From the IMG/VR virus record IMGVR_UViG_3300009505_001018, positions 1 to 23,311 of that record: a stretch of DNA of 23,311 nt. One strand, 5' to 3'. The stretch comes from a virus. The notes beneath the pieces were generated by a model, which saw only the letters and a program-made list of their open reading frames with translations, searched no databases and was not told where the DNA came from. A program made the translations under genes and the position numbers. This document shows positions 7,995 to 21,145 of this stretch, piece by piece (position 1 is the first letter of the stretch; each line of letters begins with the position of its first letter).

Positions 7995-9737
7995 ATGGCT
8001 AATAAAGATTTAGTAAAAGATGTAGCAGCACTTCACCGTACACTAGTGATCCTTACTGGTGTTCTATCTAGCGAACCGGACTTTATGTCTGAGCACGCTT
8101 ACTACGAGTTTCTACTAGACACCTATAAGCACAATGTAGGTAAGCCGTTTCCTGTTGGAGACTTCCCAACCTACGTATCTGCGGATATGACCTACAGCCT
8201 TCTGATTGAACTCCTAGACAACTGGGAAGCTTCGTTAGATTGGCCTGCGGTTATGGTAGCAGCGCCTGTAACTTATGCAGCTATGACTATGATGGCTGAT
8301 GAAATCGGAACAGCAGCAGAAGCTTTGATGCAGTATAGTAATGCAGTACCTACTAAACCTAAAGCAACTAAGAAAGGAAGAACTACTTTGATACCAAACG
8401 CTAAAGCAGAGAAGTTAGTAAGCGATTTCCTTAATGGGGATTACATATCTTCGTTATTCATTACTCACCCTGCCTCCGTTAAGTCTCAGAGAGGGTCGCA
8501 GACTATTGATACGTATGGCGAGTACTGCCTGTCACGTAACAAGTCTACAGCGTTCGTTGATGATGAAGGTAAATCAACAGTGTTCTTGGATAGAGCAGAA
8601 GCGTTACAGATCTGGTTTGCTACACAGATAACCCACTATGCTTCCTTCTTGCGAGGAGACACTGCTGGTCGGTCTAGGGAAGATGCAGAGGAAGCTGAGT
8701 TCATCGGCAACCTTCTTGCTGGCGTCCACACTGGCAAGTCTGGCTCTACTGAGAAAGACTGGTCTATTGGTGCTTCTGTTAATGTTACCTTCACAGGTGT
8801 TAACTTGCCGGGTGTTGCTCTTAGAGTAGAACCTGTGCAGTTCACGCAGATGGAGATTCAAGGAATGGCAGCACAGGTGAAGGAGCTAAACAAGATTGCC
8901 AAGCAAGCTGAAGGTCTCGGGGCTACTCCTGATTCCGTGGCTCACTCGGAGGGCATCATTGTTAAGATTCCTACACACTTTAATAAGTTCGAGAAGGTAG
9001 TAACTTTCAGTACTTACAATCTAAGTCTAGTAAATATCGATAGACCAGCTGAAGACCTCGTAAAGCAGATAACGACAGCACTTAGCAAGCCTGCTTCAGA
9101 GAGGCCACCTTTGATCTCTTGTCTCTTCCACGGTGTTCCCGGTTCTGGTAAGTCGCAGTTCGCGAACTACCTCGGTGAGCAGCTTGGCTTACGAGTAATT
9201 AAGAAGACTTACGCTGATATACAGAGCATGTATGTTGGTGAAGGCGAGAAGAACCTCTCTGAAGCGTTTGCGGAAGCGACACAAGAGGGTGCTATTCTCC
9301 TGATTGATGAGTTGGATTCGATTGCAGGTAACCGTCAGAACGCTGATAAGAACTATCAGAAGACTATGGTGAACCAGCTGCTTACTGAGCTTGACGGCTT
9401 CAAAGGTATCTTTATTGCTACCTCTAACTTCCAAGAAAGTCTCGACCCAGCAGTACTACGCCGCCTCTTCCTTAAGCTTGAGTTTAAGTTTATGAATGAG
9501 CAGCAGGTGCAGGATTGTTTCGAGTTGTACTTTCCGAAGTTGAAGAAGTCTAAGATTGGTTTCATTGATTACCTGACACCGGGTGACTTCCACGCTATCC
9601 GTGAGGCTAGCATGTTTGATGTTAAGAAGCCTACGGTTAAGCGAATAAGAGAGTTGCTTAATGCAGAGGTGTCTTTGAAGAAGAAGACACTAGGCGCGGT
9701 GATGAAGGCCGAAAGGAAAACAGGATATGATCTGTAA
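7995..9737 (+). CDS. AAA+ ATPase with unrecognised N-terminal region
   Basis: 580 aa. The C-terminal part is a complete classical AAA module: Walker A GVPGSGKS at 380-387, Walker B ILLIDELDS at 434-442, sensor 1 ATSN at 475-478 and arginine finger LRR at 488-490. The Walker B-to-LDGF segment looks like the FtsH/CDC48/proteasomal group. Residues 1-365 match nothing I know. A Lys-rich linker (KPKATKKGR) near 121-129 separates two pieces. No zinc-protease HExxH is present, so it is not a full FtsH. A remodelling or unfolding role is inferred. AAGGA at 7980-7984 precedes the start. The stop lies inside the deaminase gene. Confidence 0.85.
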   Translation: MANKDLVKDVAALHRTLVILTGVLSSEPDFMSEHAYYEFLLDTYKHNVGKPFPVGDFPTYVSADMTYSLLIELLDNWEASLDWPAVMVAAPVTYAAMTMMADEIGTAAEALMQYSNAVPTKPKATKKGRTTLIPNAKAEKLVSDFLNGDYISSLFITHPASVKSQRGSQTIDTYGEYCLSRNKSTAFVDDEGKSTVFLDRAEALQIWFATQITHYASFLRGDTAGRSREDAEEAEFIGNLLAGVHTGKSGSTEKDWSIGASVNVTFTGVNLPGVALRVEPVQFTQMEIQGMAAQVKELNKIAKQAEGLGATPDSVAHSEGIIVKIPTHFNKFEKVVTFSTYNLSLVNIDRPAEDLVKQITTALSKPASERPPLISCLFHGVPGSGKSQFANYLGEQLGLRVIKKTYADIQSMYVGEGEKNLSEAFAEATQEGAILLIDELDSIAGNRQNADKNYQKTMVNQLLTELDGFKGIFIATSNFQESLDPAVLRRLFLKLEFKFMNEQQVQDCFELYFPKLKKSKIGFIDYLTPGDFHAIREASMFDVKKPTVKRIRELLNAEVSLKKKTLGAVMKAERKTGYDL

Positions 9738-10146
9738 AGAAGACCTCTTCATGATGGACATTGCTGTACGAGTGTCTGAGGAGTCCAGAGACGAGAAAGT
9801 AAGTGTCGGTTGTGTCATCGCTAAAGATAGGAATATTCTTGCGTATGGCTACAACGGCACCCCCTCCGGATACCCGAACGAGATGAGAGATGTACACGGT
9901 GCAACCCTGTCCTGCGTAATACACGCAGAGCAGAACGCCCTTGCGAAGCTAGCCAAGTCTACCCAATCGGGAGAAGGTGCTTCTGTGTACACTACTCTCT
10001 TTCCCTGTATGAACTGTGCTATGTCATTAGTTCAAGCAGGGGTAACCCACATATACTACCAAGACCACTACAAGAACATGGATGCTCTGGAATTGTTCAG
10101 CGCACTAAATATAAACGTAACAAAGTTGGAGAACCACCTTGAGTAA
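9727..10146 (+). CDS. dCMP deaminase
   Basis: 139 aa, zinc-dependent deaminase that converts dCMP to dUMP for dTMP synthesis. The zinc site is HAEQNA (His67-Ala-Glu69), with Glu as proton shuttle, and PCMNC supplying two Cys. YNGTPSGYPNEM near residues 38-49 is the substrate/effector segment typical of phage deoxycytidylate deaminases. Length fits the family. It starts 11 nt inside the AAA+ gene and its last codons overlap the start of the reductase gene, so all three are likely co-translated. Confidence 0.92.
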   Translation: MICKEDLFMMDIAVRVSEESRDEKVSVGCVIAKDRNILAYGYNGTPSGYPNEMRDVHGATLSCVIHAEQNALAKLAKSTQSGEGASVYTTLFPCMNCAMSLVQAGVTHIYYQDHYKNMDALELFSALNINVTKLENHLE

Positions 10147-12007
10147 CCCCACCTACCGGGCATTCACGCCTTATGAGGAATTCATCTATCTGAGCCGCTA
10201 TTCTAAGTGGCGAGATGAAGATAACAGAAGAGAAACTTGGCCTGAAACTGTTGATCGTGTAGTTGACGCTTTCCAGAGACAGACAAACAGTAATAAAGAC
10301 ATCCCTTGGGGAAGTATCCGTCACGCCATACTGAACAGGGACGTTATGCCCTCAATGCGCGTTATGATGGCTGCTGGCCCTGCCCTAGATAACAACCACA
10401 TCGCTGCTTACAACTGTGCTTACACAGACATTACAAGCTACGCCACCTTTGCTGAGTGCCTGTATGTTCTTATGCACGGTACTGGACTTGGTTTCGGAGT
10501 TAGTAAGAAAGCTATCGATAAACTAGACGTAGTAGCCCCTTGCAACGGACGTAAGATCAACTATAAGATTGATGATTCCAAAGAAGGCTGGAGAGACAGT
10601 GTAGCAGTTGCTTGTGACCTAATCCCTAAAGGGTATAAGGTATACTTCGACTACAGCGCAATCCGACCAGAAGGCGCACGATTGAAGACATTCGGTGGCA
10701 GAGCTAGTGGCCCAGAGCCTCTTAAACAGCTTCACCAACATCTGATATCCGTGTTCAGTGATGCTCGTGGTAGATCTTTGTCTACTAAAGAAGCACACTC
10801 GATTGTATGTAAGATAGCAGAAGTAGTAGTAGTTGGTGGCGTAAGACGGTCTGCCCTGATTAGCTTGTCTGACCTCGATGATCGAGAGATGGCACTTGCT
10901 AAGTCAGGCGACTGGTGGATTCAGAACGGTGAATTCGGTCTCGCTAACAACAGTGCATTATATCACAGCAAACCATCACAACAGGAGTTCGCAACTGAAT
11001 GGCAAACCTTAATCGATTCAGGGTCAGGAGAACGAGGAATATTCAATCTTCAATCCGCGTACAGCAAATGCATCGAAATAGGGAGGAAGCCCTTAATAGC
11101 AGGAGTGAACCCGTGTGGGGAAATACTTCTGAGGGATGGTCAGTTCTGCAACCTGTCGGAAGCAGTGATTCGACCGGAAGACACGATAGACACACTAGCA
11201 GCGAAGATTAAGATCGCTTCTATTATAGGAACTATCCAGTCTACCTTTGATGTCTTCAATGGCCTCAGTGATAAGTGGACTATTAATACTAAGGAAGAAA
11301 GACTCCTCGGTGTCTCTATGACTGGTATTATGGATAACCCATTAACTAACGGTAAAGACGACGGCTTGGATTACAGGCTGGCAATATTGAGAGCACATGC
11401 TAGAGATGTTAACATTGAATACGCTGAGATCTTGGGTGTCAACCCTTCTACAGCTATTACAACTGTTAAGCCTTCTGGTACTGTATCTCAGCTGTGTGGT
11501 GTCTCTTCTGGTATCCACCCTGCTCACGCTAATTCTTATATTAGACGAGTAAGGAACGATAAGAAAGACCCCTTGACACAATTGATGATTGCTGAAGGTG
11601 TTCCCGGTGATACCGATGTTATGAACCCTAAGACACATGTCTTTGAGTTCGGCATTGAGCGACCTGATTCACTAACGCGAGATGACTTTACTGCTATCGA
11701 GTTCTTAGAGATCTGGAAATCATATAAAGTACATTGGACAGATCACAATCCAAGTGTTACAGTAAGCGTACACGATAGTGAGTGGCGTGCAGTAGGTGAT
11801 TGGGTGTTTGAGAACTTCGATATTGTAGGTGGCTTAAGCTTCTTACCTTTCGATGGTGGCACGTACCAACAAACACCTTACGAGACTTCTACCGATCTGC
11901 CTGTTGCAGTGAAAGTGGATTACACTAAACTTCCCGAGTACGAGAAGCAAGATAGTACGACCGGAGACCAACAGCTGGCTTGTAGCGCTGGGGTCTGTGA
12001 GATATAA
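10139..12007 (+). CDS. nrdJ: Ribonucleotide reductase, class II (adenosylcobalamin-dependent, monomeric)
   Basis: 622 aa. N-terminal SRYSKWRDEDNRRETWPETV is characteristic of the Lactobacillus-type ribonucleoside-triphosphate reductase. Conserved parts include AYNCAYT (first redox Cys), MHGTGLGFGVS, FDYSAIRPEGARL, FGGRASGPEPL, the radical-site motif NPCGEI and a C-terminal CSAGVC pair that re-reduces the active site. It makes deoxynucleotides without oxygen or a second subunit but needs cobalamin from the host. The start is TTG at 10139, with GGAG at 10128-10131; an ATG appears only much further in. It is shorter than the about 740-aa bacterial enzyme. Its place after dCMP deaminase marks a nucleotide-supply block. 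Confidence 0.93.
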   Translation: MSNPTYRAFTPYEEFIYLSRYSKWRDEDNRRETWPETVDRVVDAFQRQTNSNKDIPWGSIRHAILNRDVMPSMRVMMAAGPALDNNHIAAYNCAYTDITSYATFAECLYVLMHGTGLGFGVSKKAIDKLDVVAPCNGRKINYKIDDSKEGWRDSVAVACDLIPKGYKVYFDYSAIRPEGARLKTFGGRASGPEPLKQLHQHLISVFSDARGRSLSTKEAHSIVCKIAEVVVVGGVRRSALISLSDLDDREMALAKSGDWWIQNGEFGLANNSALYHSKPSQQEFATEWQTLIDSGSGERGIFNLQSAYSKCIEIGRKPLIAGVNPCGEILLRDGQFCNLSEAVIRPEDTIDTLAAKIKIASIIGTIQSTFDVFNGLSDKWTINTKEERLLGVSMTGIMDNPLTNGKDDGLDYRLAILRAHARDVNIEYAEILGVNPSTAITTVKPSGTVSQLCGVSSGIHPAHANSYIRRVRNDKKDPLTQLMIAEGVPGDTDVMNPKTHVFEFGIERPDSLTRDDFTAIEFLEIWKSYKVHWTDHNPSVTVSVHDSEWRAVGDWVFENFDIVGGLSFLPFDGGTYQQTPYETSTDLPVAVKVDYTKLPEYEKQDSTTGDQQLACSAGVCEI

Positions 12008-12016
12008 ATGAGTGAT

Positions 12017-12044
12017 TCCCCTGACCCCTAAAAAGGTTGGGGGA
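12017..12044 (+). terminator. Hairpin after RNR, likely transcription terminator
   Basis: A 10-bp stem (12017-12026 with 12035-12044: TCCCCTGACC against GGTTGGGGGA, including two G-U pairs) with an 8-nt A-rich loop, followed by TTCTTA. It sits 10 nt after the reductase stop, at the largest true gap of the region. The T-run is interrupted, so it may be a partial terminator or an RNA-processing or stabilising hairpin. Confidence 0.5.
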
Positions 12045-12123
12045 TTCTTATGTTAAATAAACCGAGGCGCAATGCCTCTATAAATAAACGCCTACCGCAA
12101 CGGTGGCTAAAGGAATTAGATTA
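12045..12123 (+). promoter_or_regulatory. Intergenic leader with second hairpin
   Basis: The gap between the terminator-like hairpin and the next start holds another stem (GAGGC 12064-12068 with GCCTC 12074-12078). This is followed at once by TATAAATA (12079-12086), which equals the T4 late promoter box by sequence. A small ACCG/CGGT hairpin lies near 12093-12104. I see no good sigma70 -35/-10 pair. A promoter for the MoxR/VWA block would be expected here, but none is certain. Confidence 0.3.
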
Positions 12124-12360
12124 ATGAACAACAATACATTCAACGCAGTAAGCAACGCCGTCCTAGAACTAGCAAAGACTCCAGAGGCTGAAGCTTTTCT
12201 GCAAGTCGCTACAGGAACAATAGGAACCCTCGTAGCTAAGACAGCTCTACAAGCAGTAACAAAGACTCCAGTAGGTATGGCAGTTGTCGGTGTAGCCGCA
12301 GCAAGCGCTCTCGCAATAGCCGTCTACAAGAGTTCAAAGGCACCAATAGAAGTAGAATAA
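12124..12360 (+). CDS. Small hydrophobic protein (78 aa)
   Basis: Start at ATG 12124 with AAAGGA 12109-12114; an in-frame GTG at 12103 lacks a site. The N-terminal half is Ala/Thr-rich and helical. Residues about 53-70 (VGMAVVGVAAASALAIAVY) form one membrane-type segment, followed by a Lys-rich then acidic tail. It is the first gene after the RNR terminator and precedes the MoxR gene. No family is recognised. Confidence 0.62.
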   Translation: MNNNTFNAVSNAVLELAKTPEAEAFLQVATGTIGTLVAKTALQAVTKTPVGMAVVGVAAASALAIAVYKSSKAPIEVE

Positions 12361-12442
12361 ACCGCAATTCAGGTGCAAAGCCTATCTATTGAATACCAAC
12401 CTAATCGTTTTAAAACAAAATAAACTTACAGGAATAGACTAT

Positions 12443-13477
12443 ATGAACATTACAAACGCTATTACAATCGTAGAACAAATGCTTACTAACAACCTGTCTT
12501 TGAAGAAAGGCGCAAGCAATGCAGCATACCTCGTACCAATGCTTTGGTCACTTCCCGGCGAAGGCAAGACAACTGCTATTGAGGACTTAGCAGAGAAGAT
12601 GGGTGCAGACATCCGAACAGTGATTGTTGCTGGTTATGATCCTGCTGAGTTAGGCGGCTTCCCTGTTATTGATAAAGAGAACGAGCAGTATGTACGCTTT
12701 GCTCCTTTCTTTATGAAGAACTTTGCTGAAGACAGGCCTACAATCTTGTTCCTCGATGAGCTCCCACAAGCATGTACTTCAAGTCAGAACATCGTGGCAC
12801 AGTTGGTCAATGAGCGCCGTATTGGTGAGCACAACTTACCTCCTCAAGTCGTAATTGTTGGTGCAGGAAATCCGATGGCAGCAAGGGCTGGTACGAACCA
12901 ATCCCCTTCACATCTGAAATCTCGTCTCACACACTTAGACATTGAAACGGATCACGTTGGCTTCCGGAAGTATGCTCTGACTAAAGGCTTCAACCCTGCT
13001 ATTACCTCTTACATCAATGATCGCCCTGAGTGGCTTCAGAAGTTTGATGCTAATGTTAATGCTTGTCCATCACCACGTTCTTGGGAGCGAGTTAACTCCT
13101 TGCTATCCTTGAACCTACCTGATGGAATGAAGCGTGATGCAATACAAGGTCAGCTAGGTGCTGGTGCAGTAACAGACTTCTTTGGTTACCTAGAGATGTT
13201 TGAGCATCTGCCATGTGTAGAGACCGACATTTTCCCATCACCGGAGACTGCTGAGATCCCTACACGACCAGACCACCTGTACGCACTATGCAGCAACATT
13301 GCTCATAAGGCCACAGATGACACTGCTGAAGCTTTGATCACCTACATCAAGCGTTTCCCTTCTAAAGAGTTCGCCGCATTCTGTGTGCGTGACTCATTGG
13401 CTCGGACTCCTACATTGATGAAAGTACCAGTTGTCCAGACTTGGATGGCTACAGAAGGTCGTGACTTACTACTATAA
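12443..13477 (+). CDS. MoxR-type AAA+ ATPase
   Basis: 344 aa from ATG 12443, preceded by ACAGGA and a spacer like other starts here; the longer frame back to TTG 12389 has no good site. Walker A SLPGEGKTT (36-44), the MoxR/dynein-related segment AGYDPAELGGFPV (63-75), Walker B ILFLDELPQA (101-110), sensor 1 GAGNP (140-144) and Arg161 in SRLTH as finger. MoxR ATPases act as chaperones that load or remodel partners, usually a VWA-domain protein encoded next door, as here. In the archaeal virus ATV a MoxR/VWA pair was linked to virion tail development (from memory). The phage target is unknown. Confidence 0.87.
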   Translation: MNITNAITIVEQMLTNNLSLKKGASNAAYLVPMLWSLPGEGKTTAIEDLAEKMGADIRTVIVAGYDPAELGGFPVIDKENEQYVRFAPFFMKNFAEDRPTILFLDELPQACTSSQNIVAQLVNERRIGEHNLPPQVVIVGAGNPMAARAGTNQSPSHLKSRLTHLDIETDHVGFRKYALTKGFNPAITSYINDRPEWLQKFDANVNACPSPRSWERVNSLLSLNLPDGMKRDAIQGQLGAGAVTDFFGYLEMFEHLPCVETDIFPSPETAEIPTRPDHLYALCSNIAHKATDDTAEALITYIKRFPSKEFAAFCVRDSLARTPTLMKVPVVQTWMATEGRDLLL

Positions 13478-13491
13478 AGGAGAAGTAAAGT

Positions 13492-14706
13492 ATGGATGCA
13501 CAATTAAAAGTTAGTAGAGCAGTAACCCGTCTTGCTTGTACAAACCCGTTCTTCGGGTCTTGTCTAATGCAGTTGGGAACTATAGAGGATCCTACTTGTT
13601 CTACTATGGCTACCGATGGCACAACTGTGTACTGGGGTAGGGCCTTTGTAGATACGCTGACTGAGGAGGAGGTAAGGGCTGTGTTGTGTCACGAGGTGAT
13701 GCACGTAATCCTTATGCACTGCCAAAAGCAGCCTGCACGATACTCTGATTTTAAACTTACTAACGTAGCTATGGATTACACGATTAATCCTGAGTTGCGG
13801 AACAGTGGGCATGTGTTGCCCAAGGGTGTCTTGTTCGATGAGTCTGGAAAGACTGCAGGTTGGACTTGGCAGGCTATCTACTTGTTACTGGAGGAAGTAA
13901 AGAAACAGCAGGAGGGTGAAGGTCAGCCCTCTGAGGGTGGAGAAGATGGAGAAGGCCTAGATGGTTTCACAGCTTCAGAAATAGAAGCGATGGCTAATGA
14001 CATAGCCAATGCTGAAGACCACGTAGGGCCATCTAAGAAGTCGGATTCTGAAACAGAGACCACTAAGCAGAAGATACAGGATATGGTTGTCAAGGCTGTT
14101 ACTACTGCTGAAGGCTCTAAGACTGACTTGCCTGCGGGTATGGAACGTATCTTAGAGGAGATCAGAGAGCCGAAGCTGCCTTGGAATGAATTCTTCCAGA
14201 ACAAGGTAAGAGCAAAGTTCCCAGATGATTTCACCTATCGTAAACCTAACAGGAAGTTCTTCGCAGATGATCTCTATCTGCCGACTATGTCAGGTGAGCG
14301 AGCAGGGACAATCGTGTTAGCTTTGGACACCTCTGGATCAGTACGTGATGAGGAGTTAGCCGCTTACTGTGGAGAGGTCAACTGTATTATTAATGATCTT
14401 AAACCAGAGAAAGTATACCTGATGACGTCTGATTGTAGGGTAGCACAGGTACAGGAATTTGAAGGTGACATGTGGTTTGATGTCGCTGACTTTAAAGCGT
14501 TAGGTGGTGGAGGTACTTCTTTCAGACCGGTATTCGAATACTTGGATGAGAAAGAGATAGCTGTAGACCAACTAATTTACTTTACTGATATGGGTGTGTA
14601 TGCCTCGGATTACCCGACAAAGCACCCTGATTTTCCTGTTATATTTGTATCAACTGAACCAAATCAAACAGCCCCATTTGGGGATGTAGTCTACTTAGAA
14701 CTATAA
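13492..14706 (+). CDS. Metallopeptidase-like plus VWA domain protein
   Basis: 404 aa. N-terminal domain: LTEEEVRAVLCHEVMHVILM with the zinc motif His67-Glu68-x-x-His71, followed by AMDYTINPEL, as in the putative metallopeptidase domain found with VWA-like proteins. A long acidic Gly/Glu/Ser linker spans about 138-195. The C-terminal VWA domain has MIDAS DTSGS (279-283), Thr342 in GGGGTSF and Asp366 in FTDMG. The two-domain layout matches families usually annotated as VWA-like DUF2201/PF13203. It starts 15 nt after the MoxR stop with AAAGGAG, so the pair is one unit. Whether the zinc site cleaves protein is not known. Confidence 0.87.
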   Translation: MDAQLKVSRAVTRLACTNPFFGSCLMQLGTIEDPTCSTMATDGTTVYWGRAFVDTLTEEEVRAVLCHEVMHVILMHCQKQPARYSDFKLTNVAMDYTINPELRNSGHVLPKGVLFDESGKTAGWTWQAIYLLLEEVKKQQEGEGQPSEGGEDGEGLDGFTASEIEAMANDIANAEDHVGPSKKSDSETETTKQKIQDMVVKAVTTAEGSKTDLPAGMERILEEIREPKLPWNEFFQNKVRAKFPDDFTYRKPNRKFFADDLYLPTMSGERAGTIVLALDTSGSVRDEELAAYCGEVNCIINDLKPEKVYLMTSDCRVAQVQEFEGDMWFDVADFKALGGGGTSFRPVFEYLDEKEIAVDQLIYFTDMGVYASDYPTKHPDFPVIFVSTEPNQTAPFGDVVYLEL

Positions 14707-14716
14707 GGAATATTAT

Positions 14717-15862
14717 ATGAATAGTCTTAACATATCTAGAGATTTAGAAGCACAAAGCTACTTCGCAAGCACTATCCAGCCTCTCTGTGCTCTAATTAAT
14801 CAGCTGAAGTTCTCTGAAGTCTTTGATAACGAAACGGGGAAGGTATTACCCCATATCGCGAAGGATCTGTCAATCGCTGAGATATCCGCAAGAGAGCATT
14901 TAGAGATAGTCTGCTATCGCGAGAAAGTATCTGTAGACGCGGTATTAGAAATCATAGAGCGCAGGTTAGACCGTACTAGGGCTAAGTTTGCTGATATGTT
15001 TCCTACTCCCGCAGATGCCCAAGATGACTTTCAGGCCATTGCGTCAGAGCTGTTTGACTACGGAAGCAGATATGGCTACCGGAGGTTTCTGATGCACGAT
15101 GTAGACTCTGAGCAAGTTGATGAGCTGTTGCTACTCTTACCTAGAGATGGTGCTACTGTGAAGCAAGGCTTGGTAGGGCTTTACGTGAAATCTCTTAAGT
15201 CTCTGATCAAAGCGCTTGTAAGCTTCACTGCTATAAAAGAGCTGATGCCTACTTACCGTGAAATAGCGGTAAAGCGGAATGAGACCTTTCGAAAGCTTAC
15301 TAAATCCAAAGAAGATCTGACGGATGGATTTTTCGGGTCTTGGTCTCTATCAGGTAGGATAAGCATGAGACGCGAACCTACTTCAAAGATAGAGTTGACT
15401 GAGCTAAGAAGAAATGGAGCAAGACGTGTCTCTGTCAGCGATGAGTCTCTGGATAATATGGGAGCTAGTAATATTAAGATCGCTGCTGACGCTCTATCTT
15501 TCCGGACTAAGAAGACAGTGATTACAGATGTAAGGGAATGTAGCGTTGAGGAAATTGCAGCTGCTGGTAAGAAGATGAAGTTCAAAGGTAACACAAGTGA
15601 CGTAAGGGTCTACGAGATAACACAAGGCTTCGCTATGGACACTCTTGCATTAGAGACCAATGCTTCTCAAACTCACGGTCTTAACACTCGACTAGAGAAG
15701 ATGAAGAGGAACACTATTGACCTTAGAGGTTACTTTATTACAGTACAGGAAACACCTACGATGCATTTCCAATCTGTGACGTTATCGATCGGTCGAGGCT
15801 TAGGCTCTACCACGAAGCGCATAGTTGGCGAAGTAATGGACACACTGACTCTATCATTCTAA
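14717..15862 (+). CDS. Unknown protein linked to MoxR/VWA pair (381 aa)
   Basis: Starts 10 nt after the VWA gene with AAGGA. No recognised motif. The N-terminal 200 residues look helical (runs such as ISAREHLEIVCYREKVSVDA and DEQ-rich stretches). The C-terminal half is more mixed, with basic patches (ELRRNGARRV, KKMKFKG) and a beta-type end. No Walker, HExxH or membrane segment is seen. Being directly downstream of MoxR and the VWA protein, it is a candidate third component or substrate (inference from position). Confidence 0.75.
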   Translation: MNSLNISRDLEAQSYFASTIQPLCALINQLKFSEVFDNETGKVLPHIAKDLSIAEISAREHLEIVCYREKVSVDAVLEIIERRLDRTRAKFADMFPTPADAQDDFQAIASELFDYGSRYGYRRFLMHDVDSEQVDELLLLLPRDGATVKQGLVGLYVKSLKSLIKALVSFTAIKELMPTYREIAVKRNETFRKLTKSKEDLTDGFFGSWSLSGRISMRREPTSKIELTELRRNGARRVSVSDESLDNMGASNIKIAADALSFRTKKTVITDVRECSVEEIAAAGKKMKFKGNTSDVRVYEITQGFAMDTLALETNASQTHGLNTRLEKMKRNTIDLRGYFITVQETPTMHFQSVTLSIGRGLGSTTKRIVGEVMDTLTLSF

Positions 15863-15877
15863 ACTAAGGAAATAACT

Positions 15878-16156
15878 ATGTACACTATTACTCACACACA
15901 TGCACAGATGAGCGCACTTCTTAACCAGAGTGCTAACGCTGAAATCCAGTTAACCAGTAAGATAGCAGACCTGTTATCATCTCGCTCGGCGGCAGTTTCC
16001 TTCATCCAGACTACTCAGCTCCAGTCAGTTGTGAACTCTAATCGGCGTTCTATTTATGCGCTGGACTTGCAGCTCACTCAGGCTAGGAAGGAGTTAGATG
16101 TGGCGCAGTATAACTATTACTACGCTAGTAAGCAGTTAGCTACCCTAAACAACTAA
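15878..16156 (+). CDS. Coiled-coil hypothetical protein (92 aa)
   Basis: Starts after AAGGA at 15866-15870. Polar, Gln/Ser/Ala-rich, with two helical stretches (INQSANAEIQLTSKIADLL-like, and LDLQLTQARKELDVAQYNYY) that could form an antiparallel hairpin. It resembles the coiled-coil protein at 7588 in general character only. It closes the MoxR/VWA block before a 67-nt gap that holds no clear signal beyond the next gene's AAAGGAA. Confidence 0.68.
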   Translation: MYTITHTHAQMSALLNQSANAEIQLTSKIADLLSSRSAAVSFIQTTQLQSVVNSNRRSIYALDLQLTQARKELDVAQYNYYYASKQLATLNN

Positions 16157-16223: not shown

Positions 16224-16517
16224 ATGAGTAATGATACTTTACGAGCACAAACAATCGAACTGATGACTGGCTTTATGATGGATAACATCTATGCTGGGCA
16301 GAATATCGATACAACTGAACTCCAGAACACTGCTGCACTGTACTACGACTTGGTTCTTGGTGCAAGGGATGCTATTGCTGCCGAGAATGTAATCAAGGAG
16401 AAGCAAGCGGTTGACGCGGTCAAGGCCGGTTATGTCGATGCTTCCAATCCTACACAGGTGGACTTGATGGGTGGTGCTCGGGCTGTAGAGAAATCTACGT
16501 TCTATAAAGGAGAGTAG
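16224..16517 (+). CDS. Hypothetical protein (97 aa)
   Basis: ATG 16224 follows AAAGGAA. Mostly helical and Ala-rich, with an acidic first half and a conserved-looking short C-terminal stretch (NPTQVDLMGG). No membrane segment or metal motif. No family is recognised. The next gene starts 1 nt after its stop. Confidence 0.7.
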   Translation: MSNDTLRAQTIELMTGFMMDNIYAGQNIDTTELQNTAALYYDLVLGARDAIAAENVIKEKQAVDAVKAGYVDASNPTQVDLMGGARAVEKSTFYKGE

Positions 16518-18452: not shown

Positions 18453-19013
18453 ATGTACAATGAATCACAGCAGGTCGGACAACTTCTTACAGACAGCGCT
18501 ATCATTATGCTGACAGACGGTTTTGAGCAGGACACTATTATGCCAATCGTGGCTAGAATAATGGCTTACAACCTGATGCCTAAAGAGCTTCAGCCTGAGT
18601 TCATTACTATGGTTATTAACTCACCGGGTGGCTCTGCGCACTCTTGCTTCCACTTGATCGACATTATGAAGACCTCTAAGATCCCAGTGCATACTGTTGC
18701 TATGGGTATTACAGCGTCTTGTGGTGTTCTTACTTTGATGGCAGGAGCGAAAGGTCACAGGTCTGTAACACAGAACACTTCTATCTTGAGTCATACTTGG
18801 TCTTGGGGCGCAAGTGGTACTTCATTCGCTCTGGAAGCTGCTAACGTTGAGTTTGAACTTAGCAACCAAAGGATGATGGCTCACTACAGGAAGTGTACTG
18901 GTAAGTCAGAGAAGTATATTACTAAACATCTGGTTGGCCCGACTGATAGTTGGTTGACTGGAGAAGAAGCAGTGAAACACGGATTAATTGACTTTGTAAC
19001 GGAGACTTACTAA
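18453..19013 (+). CDS. clpP: ClpP-like serine protease
   Basis: 186 aa of the S14 (ClpP/crotonase fold) family. VINSPGGSAHS at 54-64 forms the oxyanion strand. The catalytic triad is Ser89 (GITASCG), His114 (ILSHTW) and Asp165 (PTDSW). The C-terminal LTGEEAVKHGLID matches ClpP closely. Complete length for a ClpP subunit. Phage ClpP-like enzymes are either prohead proteases or true Clp-type peptidases. No scaffold or portal gene is near, and no ClpX/ClpA-type IGF-loop unfoldase is seen; the AAA+ protein at 7995 is the nearest candidate unfoldase. Leader AAGGAAG precedes the start. Confidence 0.9.
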   Translation: MYNESQQVGQLLTDSAIIMLTDGFEQDTIMPIVARIMAYNLMPKELQPEFITMVINSPGGSAHSCFHLIDIMKTSKIPVHTVAMGITASCGVLTLMAGAKGHRSVTQNTSILSHTWSWGASGTSFALEAANVEFELSNQRMMAHYRKCTGKSEKYITKHLVGPTDSWLTGEEAVKHGLIDFVTETY

Positions 19014-20467: not shown

Positions 20468-21145
20468 ATGTATTTCATATCAGCACCTTTCGGAAACTAT
20501 ATAAAGACGAAAAGCACTATCAGTGTTACAGGTAGCTGGACTCTTGAGCCTCGTCCGGGATTAGTAAAGCAAGTCGTGAAGACCTTACGCTATACTAAGA
20601 CTGGATGGAGGAACAAGATTGGCTTACGTAACAAAGGTATTGACTACGCTGTAGCAAGACACAAACGAGGAGATGTGATGAGCCTCGCAGCAGGAGAAGA
20701 TTGGCTAGGCCTGTATGAGAAGGTAAGCCCTTATGCCAGTGTGGAGATTAATATCAGCTGTCCTAATTTGGATAAGCAGGTAGGTCAACTGGTGGAGGGT
20801 TATGATCTCTGGCCTAAGACAGATCGTGAGTGGTGTATAGCTAAGATCTCACCGTTGGCAGATGAGGCCCTCGTTGATCAGTTGGTATACGCAGGCTATA
20901 CGACTATCCACGCAAGCAACACACTACCTTCTGATAAAGGAGGTCTAAGTGGTAAGCTGCTGGTACCGTATACTATGAGGCTATTAGACTACATTAATAA
21001 GAACCATCCCCACGTAGAGGTCATAGCTGGCGGCGGTGTCACTTGTGAGCAGGATGCAGAGGACTATATGAACGCAGGTGCGGATCATGTCAGCCTTGGT
21101 ACTGTTTGCTTTACCCCTTGGAAGATAAAAGGAATAGTAGGATGA
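20468..21145 (+). CDS. Dihydroorotate dehydrogenase-like flavoprotein (shortened)
   Basis: 225 aa, against about 310 for bacterial class 1 enzymes. Conserved signatures in order: SAPFGNY (5-11), IGLRNKGIDY (51-60), EINISCPNL (93-101) with the Cys that serves as catalytic base in class 1 enzymes, AKISP with the substrate/FMN Lys near 126, HASNT (148-152), GGLSGKLLVPY (158-168), AGGGVT (187-192) and AGADHVSLGTV (203-213) for FMN phosphate. The order and motifs fit a TIM-barrel DHODH, which oxidises dihydroorotate to orotate in pyrimidine synthesis. It is compact, and no electron-transfer subunit is seen. It could support pyrimidine supply or be a related FMN enzyme such as a dihydropyrimidine or tRNA-U reductase relative. 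Confidence 0.75.
   Translation: MYFISAPFGNYIKTKSTISVTGSWTLEPRPGLVKQVVKTLRYTKTGWRNKIGLRNKGIDYAVARHKRGDVMSLAAGEDWLGLYEKVSPYASVEINISCPNLDKQVGQLVEGYDLWPKTDREWCIAKISPLADEALVDQLVYAGYTTIHASNTLPSDKGGLSGKLLVPYTMRLLDYINKNHPHVEVIAGGGVTCEQDAEDYMNAGADHVSLGTVCFTPWKIKGIVG

Follow-up and report, generated by a model that had tools for sequence, protein, structure and literature searches.

Gene content and organization of the locus

The window, by which we mean the whole stretch of DNA that was analysed, represents a linear 23.3-kb piece of the genome of an uncultured tailed phage. Among its other genes are those for a family A DNA polymerase, a primase/helicase, an AAA protein, a dCMP deaminase, a class II ribonucleotide reductase, ClpP, and a lysozyme. 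The region considered here contains the following features.

12017–12044, + strand: terminator-like hairpin (consensus scan), upstream of the gene group
12124–12360, + strand: small protein with one hydrophobic segment (ATG at 12124; GTG at 12103 further upstream)
12443–13477, + strand: MoxR-type AAA+ ATPase, 344 aa, core (ATG start; TTG at 12389 also possible)
13492–14706, + strand: metallopeptidase-VWA protein, 404 aa, core (PF13203, PF09967, phrog_1314)
14717–15862, + strand: third protein, 381 aa, core (homologues directly behind the VWA gene in relatives)
15314–15859, + strand: C-terminal domain of the third protein, residues 200–381 (alignment, AlphaFold2)
15878–16156, + strand: coiled-coil-like ORF, 92 aa, not core (without a relative in the fetched loci)

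The five ORFs are separated by gaps of 82, 14, 10, and 15 nt. The order of the MoxR, VWA, and 381-aa genes is kept in six other contigs, which indicates that these genes are not chance ORFs. The ORFs proposed in the initial annotation are real and lie, all on the + strand, where it had placed them. The same annotation described a compact five-gene module behind a terminator. The hairpin is indeed present, but the region contains four such sites compared with 3.0 expected after shuffling, a similar frequency. The module contracts to a conserved core of MoxR, VWA, and 381-aa genes. Small proteins with a hydrophobic C-terminus precede MoxR only in the clade of the window, and the window’s own copy has a detectable sequence match only in two loci (L088 and L089); the small membrane protein was therefore rejected as a core part because it is clade-specific. 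The coiled-coil ORF was rejected as window-specific, none of the ORFs in the fetched loci being related to it. A search of Rfam gave no match in the window.

Several features of the surrounding sequence deserve mention in their own right. In the clade of the window, the trio is followed by a 97-aa protein (16224–16517) with a conserved DASNPTQVDLMGG-like motif. The family A DNA polymerase is encoded by two ORFs (36–1484 and 2054–2608) with an HNH-endonuclease-like ORF (1521–2000) between them, which may reflect a split gene, an intron, or an intein-like layout. The reductase at 10139–12007 belongs to class II (B12-dependent), whereas clade relatives have the two subunits, large and small, of a class I enzyme at the same position (L003:3560–6506), an in-place replacement of the reductase type. 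As a further set of AAA protein and protease in this region, an AAA ATPase with an uncharacterized N-terminal half (7995–9737) and a ClpP-like protease (18453–19013) flank the trio and recur in eight clade loci. The ORF at 20468–21145 matches dihydroorotate dehydrogenase (PF01180, 1.4e-16), a metabolic function that phages do not usually encode.

The MoxR ATPase and the metallopeptidase-VWA protein

The predicted ATPase matches PF00004 (AAA) at 1.9e-7, above the cut-off, while AAA_3 and AAA_5 fall below it; it also matches phrog_1297 (ATPase) at 7.9e-70. Its PGEGKT, DE, and N (GN) motifs are invariant in clade relatives, with which it shares 61–66% identity, and its closest relative of solved structure in the PDB is the AAA region of midasin. 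The Walker A and B motifs, the sensor residues, and the similarity to MoxR and midasin place the protein in the MoxR clade of AAA+ ATPases.

The protein encoded downstream matches both PF13203 (DUF2201_N metallopeptidase, 9.3e-40) and PF09967 (DUF2201 VWA-like, 6.5e-22), far above the respective cut-offs. Its layout is that of DUF2201 metallopeptidase-VWA proteins, with a zincin containing HExxH at the N-terminus and a VWA domain containing a MIDAS motif (DTSGS in the window) at the C-terminus; both motifs are invariant in relatives. All 43 full-length members have HExxH, DxSxS is present in 44/44, and the extended pattern HExxHxxxxH...NxAxDxxIN is kept in 42 of 43. The zinc-site residues of this putative peptidase are thus conserved. 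The ATPase and the HExxH plus MIDAS protein of the initial annotation therefore carry the domains and motifs ascribed to them.

In the record of phage N4 (NC_008720; L149 in our set), gp24 and gp25, which form a MoxR and metallopeptidase-VWA pair, are annotated as ATPase and HNH endonuclease. The second label is that of phrog_1314, from which it has passed to many phage records, including N4 gp25. We found no HNH domain in the phrog_1314 match of the window (13492–14706), whose domains are those of a DUF2201 metallopeptidase-VWA protein, and the label of phrog_1314 and N4 gp25 is likely an annotation error.

The VWA protein matches 767 phage records by tblastn. Jumbo phages of group 2.2 carry a MoxR and metallopeptidase-vWA pair for which a role in virion assembly has been proposed (PMC7824862), and genes 24 and 25 belong to the core set of N4-like phages (Schitoviridae) and to the middle genes of N4 (PMC4193335). 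Both pairs consist of the same two proteins with the same domain architecture as in the window. Of the undescribed system that the initial annotation proposed, the pair is thus already described; the new part is the family of the 381-aa protein. N4, the N4-like contigs, and phage phiFa differ from the trio in that their pair has no neighbouring gene from this family. The cellular MoxR-VWA pairs RavA-ViaA, CbbQO, NorQD, and CoxDE likewise combine an AAA+ motor with a VWA adaptor. They are not known to contain a fused DUF2201 metallopeptidase or a homologue of the third protein.

The third protein belongs to an undescribed family

The 381-aa protein, for which no motif had been noted initially, has no meaningful match in Pfam or PHROGs; it gave no tblastn match in 50,697 phage records and none in a direct scan of viral contigs. 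Among relatives, 38 members scanned against Pfam yielded no consistent match, and NCBIfam and PADLOC gave no meaningful identification of the family. PADLOC also returned no meaningful defence-model match for MoxR, VWA, or third-protein members. Comparison with PDB sequences produced nothing better than E 0.07, and Foldseek searches, run for the complete model as well as for the C-terminal domain, produced nothing below E 0.09 and no confident fold match. Assignment to a known family was accordingly rejected.

Relatives emerged through genomic neighbourhood and intermediate sequences, single-sequence searches being blank. Wherever IMG/VR contigs retrieved by way of the VWA protein are long enough, the VWA gene is directly followed by an ORF of 362–385 aa. 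These ORFs are homologous, with identities of only 18–27% compared with 43–52% for VWA and 61–66% for MoxR. Profile iteration through intermediates links the third protein to the post-VWA ORFs of phages resembling Roseobacter phage CRP-7 (CRP-7 gp16) and to further clades. In clade-versus-clade comparisons with hhalign, the clades form a connected chain with probabilities of 87–99.9% between neighbours, against at most 1% for controls with column-shuffled profiles and an unrelated downstream family. The most distant clades have no direct hhalign link (0.9% for T-C without intermediates), and membership of the family as a whole thus rests on transitive homology together with the same genomic position. 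More distant phages have an ORF of 280–295 aa downstream of VWA, which was rejected as a homologue (hhalign below 1%).

Members of the family range from 253 to 389 aa. The part common to all clades comprises the C-terminal 130–180 residues, and the most conserved part is the C-terminal end, a conserved and mostly basic helix. The AlphaFold2 model of the full protein (pLDDT 65.8) contains a poorly predicted helical N-terminus and a C-terminal α/β domain that, when modelled alone, reaches a pLDDT of 79.5 and a pTM of 0.77. Judged from these sequence comparisons, the 381-aa protein is the founder of an undescribed, fast-evolving phage family whose C-terminal domain may serve for docking.

The third gene always accompanies the pair

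To avoid circularity, searches for association were anchored on third-protein alignments alone, although some of the contigs found had also supplied query alignments. A VWA gene lies directly upstream on the same strand, with a gap of at most 378 nt, in 41/41 contigs that extend at least 400 nt upstream, and MoxR lies upstream of the third gene in all 21 contigs with at least 3.2 kb. The order MoxR-VWA-third on one strand holds in 44/44 loci. No relative of the third family was found in 84,980 bacterial and archaeal genomes by a degenerate-pattern search of limited sensitivity.

This survey bears out the earlier suggestion that the 381-aa protein is a dedicated partner. Two observations had been named as arguing against it: the third gene without the pair was not seen, whereas MoxR-VWA without a detectable third gene occurs in N4-like contigs (L022–L087), N4, and Thermus phage phiFa. 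The association in the genomes surveyed is therefore obligatory but one-way; the third gene appears to need the pair, and the pair occurs alone. A third partner in N4-like phages could be too divergent or too distant to see.

Among 50,697 phage records, CRP-7 (MK613349) is the only isolate in which the third family was detected. Its gp07, gp15, and gp16 form the same trio as in the window but, unlike in the window, seven small genes separate MoxR and VWA. Both gp15 and gp16 are annotated only as hypothetical.

In 19 trio loci, a protein of 200–260 aa without a family match is encoded directly upstream of MoxR (for example, L133:9258–9950, L130:9279–9884, and L125:240–908). It occurs as divergent alleles in near-identical phages (51–52% vs 99%) and is possibly a fourth, clade-specific component.

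Diversification and allele shuffling

Where MoxR proteins are 60–70% identical, VWA proteins average 49% identity and third proteins 19%. In most close pairs, dN/dS of the third protein is several-fold that of MoxR, yet below 1, and its N-terminal half diverges faster than its C-terminal half in 12 of 17 informative pairs. A stable motor with a fast-evolving vWA protein and third component is the pattern described for bacterial MoxR-vWA ternary conflict systems (PMC7159879). Those systems (VMAP, FtsH, beta-propeller, and related types; PMC7159879) resemble the trio in their three-part core with a fast-evolving, dedicated third member. They differ in that their third proteins are unrelated to the phage family (Pfam scan of 38 members) and their genes are ordered VMAP-MoxR-vWA rather than MoxR-VWA-third; the trio is further distinguished by the fusion of the zincin to VWA and by being phage-borne.

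In phages that are otherwise 93–100% identical, VWA and third proteins can fall to 55–75% identity. The two recombine independently of each other, as do even the peptidase and VWA halves. In clade E2, seven contigs whose terminase, portal, and primase are 98–100% identical harbor two MoxR alleles (about 60% alike), three alleles of the peptidase half, two of the VWA half (70%), and two of the third protein. The combinations of peptidase half, VWA half, and third protein (a-1-tA, a-2-tA, b-2-tB, and a'-1-tB) include all four pairings of VWA half and third protein, which implies recombination. Shuffling was seen independently in the CRP-7-like clade. There, L114 and L143 share 99% identity in MoxR and 95–100% in other proteins but only 70% in VWA and 69% in the third protein; L112 and L143 are 100% identical in VWA and third protein and 85% in MoxR; and L116 and L174 are 98% identical in VWA and 58% in the third protein.

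Across 52 non-redundant contig pairs, identity below 80% was found for VWA in 13/52, for the third protein in 13/52, for MoxR in 3/34, and for other ORFs in 32/322, the last figure meaning that these pairs differ to this degree in roughly 10% of their other ORFs too. The corresponding p-values of 0.003–0.005 are descriptive only, since contig pairs share contigs and are not independent. In N4-like contigs, which have the pair without the third gene, VWA fell below 80% in 0/26 pairs; VWA in close N4-like pairs is thus not diversifying, unlike in the trio clades. Mosaics in metagenomes can be assembly errors, although identical alleles turned up repeatedly in independent samples. Because the collections contain no close relative of the window, shuffling was seen only in sister clades.

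Genomic context

In CRP-7, the trio lies on the + strand arm together with DNA polymerase, primase, and RNA polymerase, whereas capsid, portal, terminase, and tail genes are all on the − strand. In three further clades (E, K, and H), the genes for terminase and portal are likewise on the strand opposite the trio, upstream of it, and in the clade of the window the neighbours of the trio are nucleotide-metabolism genes. The locus does not look like a late structural operon.

A model for the function of the trio

A conserved motor combined with a diversifying adaptor-peptidase and third protein, all encoded with replication genes, is the pattern expected if the target of the machine changes. With confidence just short of even, we favor a model in which the trio is an early, diversifying ternary remodelling protease of the phage, in which the third protein serves as recognition subunit and whose target belongs to the host. 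The MoxR AAA+ ring would supply force; the metallopeptidase-VWA protein would couple the ring to the client and may clip it. The third protein would be a dedicated recognition subunit, anchored to the common machine through its C-terminal domain and tail; its N-terminal part, which evolves faster, would choose the target in concert with the exchangeable halves of the metallopeptidase-VWA protein. The machine would be produced along with the replication proteins, early or midway through infection, and would most likely act on a host complex, either a takeover target or a defence component. Such a target would explain the swapped, divergent alleles in near-identical phages.

Known pairs such as CbbQO, NorQD, CoxDE, and the chelatases act on the products of neighbouring genes. 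MoxR-VWA pairs usually adjoin their client, as is established for the family (PMC7159879). The close rival to our model is that the third protein is itself the dedicated client or effector, which MoxR-VWA would activate, load, or disassemble using the conserved C-terminal tail as a grip handle. Its obligatory association with the pair is consistent with this reading, as is the position of its most conserved part at the C-terminal end. However, many phages have the pair without the third gene, which indicates that the pair has clients elsewhere, and VWA diversifies along with the third protein, which a fixed client would not demand. We consider the client reading rather unlikely, and the remaining ones less likely still.

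It is improbable that the trio acts as a chaperone in virion assembly and processes structural proteins by peptidolysis. This role was proposed for the jumbo-phage pair by analogy with the tail system of the archaeal virus ATV (PMC7824862), and some virion genes lie near the gp24/25 homologues of roseophage RPP1 (PMC4193335). In CRP-7 and three other clades, however, the trio sits in the replication arm opposite the structural genes, and portal and terminase are 97–100% identical where VWA and third protein differ. The replication-arm location and the allele swapping lead us to favor host modification or counter-defence over virion assembly.

Slightly more doubtful again is remodelling of the replisome or of ribonucleotide metabolism, in which the machine would act on replication enzymes of the phage or host. 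A primase/helicase gene lies inside the fetched stretch in 36/44 loci, and the trio of the window sits between ribonucleotide reductase and ClpP. Yet neither of the latter is a neighbour of the trio in other clades, and phage primase/helicase is 97–100% identical in pairs with divergent VWA and third proteins. It is very improbable that the third protein is a precursor from which the metallopeptidase releases an active C-terminal peptide: a variable protein with a conserved tail does adjoin a zincin, and zincin plus FxSxx-type peptide systems linked to the bacterial ternary systems offer a precedent (PMC7159879), but what is conserved is not a short peptide; it is an entire folded domain of some 130–180 residues, and in the model the tail helix is packed.

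Returning to the favored remodelling protease, the swapping of adaptor and third protein between near-identical environmental viruses of bacteria suggests that it acts early in infection against host targets that change. It is tempting to speculate that the trio is a modular, target-switching protease for counter-defence or host takeover, with a MoxR motor and interchangeable cassettes (peptidase, VWA, and third protein) that phages exchange by recombination to suit different host targets; we regard this as possible, though doubtful. The logic would be like the swapping of specificity subunits in restriction systems, but applied to AAA+ protein remodelling.

The MoxR-metallopeptidase-VWA pair is core in N4-like phages and present in hundreds of others. 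The third subunit and the swapping of cassettes provide a first handle on what such machines recognize. If the alleles do set the host target, the trio would add phage weapons based on protein remodelling, as a class of their own, to the inhibitors and protease adaptors already known.
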